NCBI RefSeq assembly: GCF_003427025.1
Contig: NZ_QVAI01000003.1
Coordinates: 372,001-436,000 of the forward strand
Reading direction: 5' to 3'
DNA: 64,000 nt
From: Jiangella endophytica
GTDB lineage: Bacteria > Actinomycetota > Actinomycetes > Jiangellales > Jiangellaceae
Each line of letters opens with the position of its first letter. The first letter of the stretch is position 1. The translations under genes were made by a program, and so were the position numbers. Below, piece after piece: positions 10,647 to 29,579 of the stretch. The notes under the pieces were generated by a model. It searched no databases. It had not been told where the DNA came from and was given only the letters and a program-made list of their open reading frames with translations.

Positions 10647-11524
10647 GCGTTCGGTGGGGGTGTGCGCCGTTGGCCGTAGTGCTTCAGTTGGCCGTCTCCT
10701 GCTGCCCATTTTCGCCACGCACGCGCGCCTCAAGCGGGCTATTTGGCGCTTCGCGCGACGATGACCGCTTGACCCGCGCACGCGGTCTAAGAACTGGCAG
10801 CTATCAGGGGGCGGGGGAAGAGCGGGCACAGCCCGCACCGGTCCACCGTTCGCGGTGCCTTCGCTGCACCGCGCACCGGCCCGTGCCGGTCGGGGCGACG
10901 CTTGCCCGTGCCATCAGCGCACCCTGCACTGGTCCGCGTCGGTCGTGGTGGCGTTCGCCGTGCCTTCGGTGCGCCGGGGCGCCGGCGTCGGGGCGTACGG
11001 TCGGCTCCGGCCGTCAGCGGTGCCTGGATGTGGCGGCGGATGCCCGTGGCTCCGGTGCGCCGGTTCGCTGCCCGCTGGTGTCCACGTGGTGAGATTTTAC
11101 CGGCGTTTCGGGAGCCATCACCAGGCGTTCTGGCGCATCACCAGGCATGCATGCCGAGTGGAGCACGAGAAGTCCTAGTGATGTGCACGATCCTGGATGA
11201 TCATCACGGTCCACAACACCCCGCAAACCAGGCAAATCGGGCATCCCGGGATCGAGGCGTGCCCACACTCCTCCCGTCGCCACAACGGCGCACGGCACGG
11301 CGCCCACGAGCACCCGCGCCCACCGAGAGTGCGCGGCCACCGGCGACCGGCGGGCACCGGTGATCCTGCCCGGCCGCTGGCCCGCGGACGCTGGAAACCG
11401 ATTACAGGTGTGTCAGTGCCAGTTGGTACCGTACAAAGCCGGGCACCCCACGGAATTCGCGCGAGCGGCCGATCACGCCTGCGCGCTTCCGGGGCCGCAG
11501 TCGGGCGCGCAGAGAGCGAGTGAT
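10647..11524. other. Gene-poor stretch with degenerate internal repeats
   Basis: I see no convincing gene here; open frames are short and lack family signals. A unit at about 10835-10897 is imperfectly repeated at about 10926-10994 (both contain a GTGCCTTCG core and end in GTCGGGGCG). GCACGATCCTGGATGATCAT at 11185-11204 is a relative of the repeat found at 29134-29241. The 5' leader and promoter of the downstream ABC exporter must lie in the last part. Confidence 0.5.
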
Positions 11525-27440: not shown

Positions 27441-28985
27441 GTGATCGCGACGCCGGCCGTGGTGCCCACCTTCATTCCCAGCCCGAGCAGCAGTTCCATC
27501 GACATCCTCGGGTTCGAGCTGAGGGCGTACGCCCTGTGCATCATGGCCGGCATCGTGCTCGCGATCTGGCTCGGCAACCGACGCTGGCTCGCCCGTGGCG
27601 GCGAAGCCGGCGTCGTCGCCGACGTCGCGGTGTGGGCGGTGCCGTTCGGCATCATCGGCGGCCGCATCTACCACGTCATCACCGACAACCAGCTCTACTT
27701 CCGCGAGGGCCGCGACCCCTGGCAGGCGCTGGAGATCTGGCGGGGCGGCCTGGGCATCTGGGGCGCCATCGCCATGGGCGGCCTCGGGGTCTGGATCGCC
27801 TGCCGCCGGCGCGGCGTCCCGTTCGCCGCCATGGCCGACGCGCTGGCCCCCGGCATCCTGTTCGCCCAGGCCATCGGCCGGTGGGGCAACTGGTTCAACC
27901 AGGAGCTGTTCGGCCGTCCCACCGACCTGCCGTGGGGCCTGGAGATCGATCCCGCCCATCGGCCCGACGGTTACGCCGACGTCGCGACCTTCCAGCCGAC
28001 GTTCCTGTATGAGTCGCTGTGGGCCGTCGCGCTGGCCTTCCTGCTGCTGTGGCTCGACAAGCGGTACACCATCGGTTACGGCCGCCTGTTCGCCCTTTAC
28101 GTGGCCGGCTACACGCTGGGCCGCGGTTTCTGGGAGTACCTGCGCATCGACCCCGCCAACCACCTGTTCGGCGTCCGCGTGAACCTGTGGGTGAGCGGGC
28201 TGATCTTCGTCGCGGCCGTGGCGTACTTCTTCTGGTCGCTCAAGCGGCACCCGGGACGGGAGGACCCCGAGGCGCTGCGCGGCTTCTACGACCAGCCCGA
28301 CCCGTTCGACGACAAGGCCAAGGCCGAGGACGAGACGCCCATCACGCTGCCGGACGACGAGCCGGAGGACGGCGCGAAGGACGAGAAGCCCGCGGCTGAG
28401 GAGAAGTCCGCCGACGCCGGGAAGCCGGCGGAGGACAAGCCGGGCGAAGAGAAGCCTGCCGAGGACAAGCCCGCCGACGCCGGGAAGCCGGCCGAGGTGA
28501 CGGCCGACGCCGGGAAACCGGCGGAGGACAAGGCGGCGGAGGACAATCCGGCCGCGGCCAAGAAGACCAGCGCCGCCGTCGCGTCCGCCCCGGCGCGGAC
28601 GACGGCCAAGACCACCGCGGCCAAGAAGACCACGACCGCCAAGAAGGCGCCGGCCAAGAAGGCCGCCACCGAGCCGGCGGCGAAGAAGGCCGCGGCCAAG
28701 AAGACCACGGCCGCGACGACGGCGACGACGGCCAAGAAGGCGCCGGCGAAGAAGGTCGCCGACGCCGAGGCAGCCGCCGCTCCGTCGAAGGCCACGGCGG
28801 CGAAGAAGACGACGACAGCCAAGAAGACCCCGGCCAAGACGACGACCGCCAAGAAGGCACCCGCCAAGAAGGCACCGGCCAAGAAGGCACCCGCCAAGAA
28901 GGCGACGGCCGCCCAGGCACCGGCGGAGGCACCGGCGGAGACACCGGCCGCCGACTCGACCAGTACGCCCGCCAGCGGCAGCTGA
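27441..28985 (+). CDS. lgt: Prolipoprotein diacylglyceryl transferase with long Lys/Ala tail
   Basis: Transfers diacylglycerol from phosphatidylglycerol to the lipobox cysteine of prolipoproteins, the first step of lipoprotein maturation. Residues 1-275 are standard Lgt with about seven membrane segments; the signature [13 protein letters not shown] and the PTFLYESLW and [10 protein letters not shown] motifs are present. Residues about 285-514 form a disordered tail, first acidic ([14 protein letters not shown]), then packed with AKKTT, APAKK and AAKK repeats like histone H1/HupB tails. At 514 residues it is far longer than the usual 270-330. The lipoproteins in this window are among its presumed clients. 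Confidence 0.95.
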
Positions 28986-29133: not shown

Positions 29134-29241
29134 CTCCATGATCATCAAGGATCTGGTGCGTGATGACGCCGCGCATCCTTGTTGATCATGGAGAAGCGCA
29201 GCCTTCCGGCGTTCCGGAACCCGCATTTCTCCATGATCAAC
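29134..29241. repeat. Three-part inverted repeat with mutually exclusive hairpins
   Basis: Element A (29134-29152, CTCCATGATCATCAAGGAT) is complementary to B (29175-29193) with one mismatch. B extended (29181-29195, GTTGATCATGGAGAA) is perfectly complementary to C (29227-29241). B can pair with A or with C but not both. A related ATGATCAACAG copy lies near 29415 and another relative at 11185. The whole 28986-29579 spacer holds no gene that I can support. Confidence 0.75.
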
Positions 29242-29502
29242 AGTGGCTGCCGCGAACATCGCGACGTGTTACGTCACGAAACGGCCACGAACCGCGCTCG
29301 CCACGCCGGGCGTGGCGACGTTCACAACTGCGTGGACGTCAATGTACTTGTACGGTTCGACAGTCCGCTGACCTGACGATCTGCGGCAACGACCGGTCAT
29401 CGGTGGAGAATCCGATGATCAACAGCGGGTTCGCGTCTGTGCCTATCGGCACCGTCGCCGATATCATGGAGAGACGCGACAACACACGACGGCCGAAGTG
29501 TT

Positions 29503-29518
29503 GTAATCTCCACGAAAC
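29503..29518 (+). promoter_or_regulatory. Possible GlnR half-box upstream of gltB
   Basis: GTAAT-N6-GAAAC fits the gTnAc-n6-GaAAc half of the actinobacterial GlnR consensus closely, 61 nt before the gltB start. A similar GTTAC-N5-GAAAC at 29268-29282 has the wrong spacing. GlnR control of gltBD would make sense biologically, but the match is only a half site. Confidence 0.3.
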
Positions 29519-29579
29519 TTCACGCACGGGCCAGAGCCGTCCCTGCACCCGCCGCCAGTCTGACGACGACGGGAGTGCC

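Follow-up and report, generated by a model that had tools for sequence, protein, structure and literature searches.

The closest described relatives of the elements considered here are the REP and BIME sequences, short palindromes dispersed in extragenic DNA that lie mostly behind genes, sometimes form compound arrays and flank a dedicated endonuclease gene (PMC3733652, PMC2817692). REP-like palindromes without a known dedicated transposase, the CGTC-tagged REPs, also figure in the first of these sources, in which the word 'actinobacteria' does not occur (PMC3733652). The palindromes described below, from the soil-dwelling actinomycete genus Jiangella, resemble the REP/BIME and RAYT system in being dispersed, mostly located behind genes, sometimes joined to one another, and present on either side of an endonuclease gene. 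They differ from it in length (about 45-75 bp, as against 20-40 bp for REPs) and in the linked enzyme, which has a Vsr-type nuclease fold in place of the Y1 (HUH) transposase. We do not class them as members of the REP/RAYT group because that transposase was sought in the genome under study and not found, PF01797 having 0 matches there in a search that was positive in 5 of 14 control genomes. From the CGTC-tagged REPs they are set apart by different stems, apparently different tags and the linked nuclease. Part of that nuclease also has described relatives: MTES_1575 is presented as a novel Vsr-REase (PMC3710099), and the C-terminal domain of the Jiangella proteins matches DUF559/MTES_1575 nucleases, from which they differ in having an additional AbiEi-like half and genes flanked by palindromes. 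Among the matches listed for the open-access PMC literature, no paper linked DUF559 or AbiEi nucleases to palindromic repeats.

The locus lies between lgt and gltB in a 64,000-nucleotide stretch of Jiangella endophytica DNA (contig NZ_QVAI01000003.1, positions 372,001 to 436,000; hereafter the window), in which, as in the genome blocks treated below, gene calls were made with our own codon-usage script. Its features, and a related one elsewhere in the window, are as follows.

29134-29193, no strand assigned: A/B palindrome of the type-3 family, 60 bp, with stem CTCCATGATCATCAAGGAT ... ATCCTTGTTGATCATGGAG

29181-29241, no strand assigned: B/C palindrome of the T1 family, 61 bp, with stem GTTGATCATGGAGAA ... 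TTTCTCCATGATCAAC

29181-29193, plus strand: arm GTTGATCATGGAG (element B), common to both palindromes as read from the sequence

11189-11202 (G000:C23:383189-383202), minus strand: lone arm GATCATCCAGGATC, resembling the type-3 (A/B) family and without a visible partner arm beside it

An earlier note on this DNA had remarked that B may pair with A upstream or with C downstream, and this proved real: two long hairpins share positions 29181-29193. Folded alone as RNA, A/B reaches -35.4 kcal/mol against a shuffle mean of -16.5 (z -7.1) and B/C -35.1 kcal/mol against -13.8 (z -7.5), 0 of 200 shuffles being as good in either case; the two are mutually exclusive and nearly equal in energy, and a joint fold of the 108-nt A/B/C region retains B/C. 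We consider it likely that they are two adjacent, non-autonomous mobile palindromes with a common arm, belonging to a REP-like system in which a Vsr-fold nuclease replaces the RAYT. Overlapping type-3-like/T1 pairs with a common arm occur at two further places in the genome G001 (block positions 213060-213164 and 166186-166291), and because arm-sharing recurs there, it looks like something that commonly results when such elements come together, as happens in BIMEs. With at most one mismatch, the GATCATGGAG core has 15 occurrences in the window, where 2.3 would be expected; some of them fall in coding sequence (e.g. 36462 and 52648). Of the two related cores that the note had singled out, the one near 11185 stands, as the lone type-3-like arm listed above, while that near 29415 belongs to a conserved gltB leader block and is no dispersed copy. 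Short palindromes of a further family, CTCCCGCTCTACCAGGCATGCATGCCTGGTAGAGCGGGAG, were matched 6 times within a 400-kb block of the same genome, and a degenerate piece of one seems, by eye, to lie at about 11110-11180. The product of the neighbouring lgt (28400-28985) carries a long lysine/alanine-rich, histone-H1-like tail with AKKAPAKKA-like repeats, whose length differs among species.

The palindromes are widely dispersed. T1 arms are present in all 12 Jiangella genomes compared, as is a second family, T2 (GTTGATCTTGGAG...CTCCAAGATCAAC, about 72 bp); the ends seen in both families are GTTGATC...GATCAAC. Intact T1 and T2 palindromes number 59 in the window's own genome (G000) and range from 2 to 109 across the 12, with 0 matches throughout to a reversed-pattern control. 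Outside the genus, G026, which belongs to the same bacterial family, has 2, and the 18 other genomes of that scan have none; among the matches listed in a scan of named genomes are Haloactinopolyspora, Micromonospora, Hamadaea, Dactylosporangium, a Micromonosporaceae and a Streptomycetales MAG. The type-3 arm GATCATCAAGGATC, allowing one mismatch, occurs 122 times in the window's own genome (reversed-pattern control 0), so the suggestion that the hairpins belong to a dispersed intergenic repeat family is borne out. DNA to the left of T1/T2 copies is C-rich (C about 0.51-0.53 and G 0.18-0.22 over the 20 bases next to the palindrome) and that to the right G-rich (0.51-0.62 G), independently of gene orientation. 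Several T1/T2 copies (e.g. L010, L038, L045) overlap the end of the preceding gene, the TGA within GTTGATC being its stop codon. T1-armed elements of a Hamadaea MAG (L039, L041, L051, L143) have little inner stem and carry CGACAC/GTGTCG-like repeats mid-element.

Palindromes found beside nuclease genes (see below) were also matched in four 400-kb blocks, using a library of 86 that includes palindromes seen on a single side. This gave 79 hits, 71 of them non-genic; of the 8 genic ones, which were left out of the context counts, 7 come from a spurious entry (L210L). In the G000 block, which has 21 hits, 6 are due to another entry, L247L, which may be one-sided. The non-genic copies lie between convergent genes in 35 cases, tandem genes in 32 and divergent genes in 4, as compared with 86, 360 and 183 of the 629 gaps longer than 60 bp, and a similar bias holds among T1/T2 loci; like REP/RAYT-type repeats, they are dispersed extragenic palindromes biased to gene ends. 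This 3'-end bias first suggested that the palindromes might be bidirectional transcription terminators and nothing more, kept at gene ends by selection and insulating nuclease genes like other genes, which we now regard as unlikely, though the best of the alternatives. The strength of the hairpins is in keeping with termination, as are compensatory changes in the T1 inner stem, with 22 extra pair types against 11.8 in shuffles of 30 sequences; the T1 paired fraction is 0.892 against a shuffle maximum of 0.801. T2, on the other hand, has no excess of pair types (23 against 22.4 in shuffles), and its paired fraction of 0.743 barely exceeds the shuffle maximum of 0.738. The 13-base arms in these sets are conserved partly by construction, most of the loci having been retrieved via exact arms.

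Some pairs of T1 or T2 palindromes, separated by about 1 kb, have between them the gene of a nuclease that combines AbiEi-like and DUF559/MTES_1575 parts; other close pairs enclose ordinary genes. The protein consists of an AbiEi-like N-terminal half followed by a C-terminal domain of the Vsr/homing-endonuclease fold. The latter matches DUF559 and MTES_1575 (PF04480, PF18741), some proteins scoring over Pfam's DUF559 cut-off and others under it, and all 67 aligned proteins retain its catalytic E, D and E/Q residues, one more row being gapped. For the N-terminal half, several proteins exceed the Pfam cut-off for AbiEi_4 or AbiEi_1 and others fall below, with matches also to PADLOC AbiEi models; they differ from AbiEi antitoxins in that the nuclease domain follows in the same protein. 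NCBIfam returned a single match, far under its cut-off. An AlphaFold model from 7 sequences has an overall pLDDT of 59.7 and is usable from about residue 131 (blocks of ten at 63-93), with residues 1-125 below 50. Its best structural match is the catalytic domain of I-Bth0305I (Z 12.8, rmsd 2.2 over 96 residues), followed by the DUF559 protein 3hrl (Z 11.6) and Vsr (Z 10.4); among the lower rows are also TnsA, restriction enzymes and mitoribosomal proteins, the last reaching Z 10.5. Foldseek likewise ranked I-Bth0305I first, at E 0.027, with no match reaching E 0.001. At the sequence level the profile's match to 3hrl has an E value of 1e-4, those to two abortive-infection proteins 0.08 and 0.11, and that to I-Bth0305I an insignificant 0.37. 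The likeness to the homing endonuclease is one of fold alone; the Jiangella gene, moreover, sits between palindromes and not in an intron.

The partner nuclease is not visible from the window alone. Elsewhere in the same genome, T1 palindromes lie on both sides of the nuclease gene G000:C14:104173-105063 (L015/L183/L204), and the type-3 arm on both sides of G000:C1:588385-589269 (arms at 588295, 588329 and 589377), the right-hand palindrome of the latter being imperfect. A DUF559 search of the 12 Jiangella genomes gave 23 loci, many of them palindrome-flanked on one or both sides, with palindromes that differ by protein clade, and a profile built from 11 such nucleases gave 198 matches, or 9-24 per genome, some of which are fragments of one broken gene. 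From these, 70 loci were examined (30 fetched by profile search and 40 picked by place from the listing, in G000, G003, G008 and G001), of which 2 at contig ends were dropped; the remaining 68 are a non-random sample of the 198. When left and right 450-bp flanks were compared, using as controls 443 genes of 700-1200 bp in the blocks, a similarity of at least 25 was reached by 49 of the 68 nuclease loci and just 3 of the 443 ordinary genes; the figures are 42 and 0 at a threshold of 30, and 51 and 6 at 20, with 17 nuclease loci lacking matching flanks at the last score. In 43 of those 51 loci the common flank segment is more palindromic than 99% of shuffles. It was this comparison (49/68 against 3/443) that demoted terminators as the sole explanation, ordinary genes so rarely having matching palindromes on both sides. 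The association extends beyond the genus: at E<=1e-15 the nuclease is found in at least 113 of 296 genomes of the phylum, a lower bound because few candidates per genome were scored. Among 26 loci from this survey (29 fetched, less 3 at contig ends), left-right similarity of at least 25 occurs in 13, spanning 9 families, as against 0 of 650 cross-locus pairs. Of the 14 at 20 or more, 9 have a common segment whose palindromic character none of 200 shuffles equals; in 4 others that character is weaker, and the segment of L287 is no palindrome.

The palindrome family follows the nuclease clade. Across the 36 loci at which two similar palindromes are clearly paired, nuclease identity correlates with palindrome similarity (Mantel rho 0.59, 0 of 2000 permutations). 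Where two proteins are more than 80% identical, their palindromes are similar in 60% of cases (n=25); the share drops to 20% at 60-80% identity (n=133) and to 0-1% below 60%, a tracking that tells against terminators kept at gene ends. With T1 and T2 excluded, a central motif, G[CTG][CTG]A[TGC][AG][AG]C or its complement, is shared by 33 of 51 palindromes from 27 loci with differing stems, where shuffles average 2.5 and 8 of the 92 palindromes of other origin have it, a result that is exploratory because the pattern was picked after inspection. Per genome, the number of T1 arms is related to that of T1-clade nucleases, assigned by eye among DUF559 hits, with rho 0.50 (p 0.10, 12 genomes), or 0.89 without G008, which has 107 T1 arms and yet no T1-clade nuclease that we could find; a nuclease relic between two of its T1 copies was sought and not found.

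Palindromes also come and go between species. Among 48 copies with a comparable orthologous site, 46 were not found there in other blocks (several sites being rearranged), and 109 orthologous-site comparisons gave the same palindrome in 2, a different one in 41 and none in 66; that copies are absent or replaced at orthologous gene ends tells against terminators kept by selection. Termination and mobility are nevertheless compatible, and both can be true. At one site J. ureilytica has a palindrome-nuclease-palindrome cassette (L108), the window's own genome has neither element (L032), and J. rhizosphaerae has a shortened, apparently decayed version (L132, by eye). Three palindromes identical across 74 bp lie on three J. 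aurantiaca contigs in flanks that do not align beyond background (a short right-flank resemblance is seen by eye, with local scores of 14-16, 99% of random pairs scoring at most 18), and flanks are unrelated in 162 of 177 near-identical palindrome pairs. In flanks viewed by eye no target-site duplication was noticed, and they lean to complementary rather than repeated: complementarity past the palindrome edge runs for a mean of 1.27 as against 0.60 in shuffles (largest of 1000, 0.94), with runs of at least 5 in 10 of 144 copies, perhaps reflecting insertion into pre-existing hairpins.

Such near-identical copies in unrelated flanks point to copying, and so bear on another reading, about as unlikely as terminators and to our mind slightly more so, in which the palindromes serve as operators or as sites for host proteins, while the AbiEi-like nucleases, with a role in defence or regulation, use them for autoregulation and not for movement. 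AbiEi proteins bind inverted repeats near their promoters, the N-terminal halves described here match AbiEi models, and the palindromes are close to the nuclease genes; against this, they flank the gene on both sides and occur at many nuclease-free places, mostly behind genes. A reading of the palindromes as miniature elements that some unrelated transposase mobilises, with nuclease genes as passengers between two copies, is in turn very unlikely. Bare palindromes do far outnumber nuclease genes of the same family, and G008 is rich in T1 copies without a detected T1-clade nuclease, but palindromes belonging to many unrelated families enclose the same kind of gene, which recurs in several families of the phylum, and the palindrome follows the nuclease clade; the one transposase type searched for, Y1, in the window's own genome alone, was not found.

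The comparison of relatives also bears on what the hairpins mean for gltB. The A/B/C order, whose retention upstream of gltB would have favoured a two-state switch specific to that gene, is intact in the window's own genome alone among the 12 Jiangella genomes. G008 has a collapsed remnant of the arrangement, G011 a T2 palindrome, G007 a type-3-like palindrome, G002 and G006 other palindromes with a TGATCATC core and G004 a GGCGGTTCGGTGG palindrome, the remaining genomes having different palindromes or none. Common to all 12 (with at most 3 mismatches) is instead a block whose two parts lie about -117 and -82 from gltB; it includes the core near 29415-29471. A two-state RNA switch controlling gltB, in spite of hairpins that exclude each other at nearly equal energies, is thus extremely improbable and was rejected on position and lack of conservation in relatives, the palindromes lying upstream of the conserved leader block and recurring at many unrelated places, and no Rfam family reaching its gathering score anywhere in the window. 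Of the two readings first offered for this locus, dispersed repeats and a gltB-specific RNA switch, the former holds and the latter fails. Any influence of the palindromes on lgt or gltB would be secondary, and gene-adjacent hairpins in these genomes should not be called regulators without comparing relatives. In the leader itself (29414-29519), ATCATGGAGAGACGCGACAACAC at about -117 and GTGTTGTAATCTCCACGAAACT at about -82 could pair (GGAGA/TCTCC, CAACAC/GTGTTG); the leader is possibly a nitrogen-control element.

Returning to mobile palindromes served by a nuclease, we infer from their association, co-divergence and turnover, all read from genome sequences, that the nuclease moves them. The autonomous form of each family would be palindrome, nuclease gene, palindrome, and bare palindromes, such as the two after lgt, would be non-autonomous copies. 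The nuclease may recognise the palindrome of its own family, possibly when this is folded into a hairpin or cruciform, and cut at the palindrome or at the target, whereupon repair or strand transfer could copy the bare palindrome or the whole cassette into intergenic DNA, mostly directly behind genes. We further lean, with somewhat less assurance than for the locus itself, towards the view that AbiEi-Vsr nucleases drive a class of mobile palindromes across the phylum by clade-specific hairpin recognition (perhaps via the common loop motif) and copying, with no HUH or DDE chemistry and with many lineages in each Jiangella genome. These nucleases are a common, unexplained gene family of Actinomycetota, and the link to palindromes points to a function that can be tested for proteins matched 9-24 times in each Jiangella genome. 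If true, this would be a second, unrelated enzyme moving REP-like palindromes, one with a homing-endonuclease fold, and the many matched palindrome-nuclease pairs within one genus would be natural material for asking how the target of a nuclease of this kind shifts.
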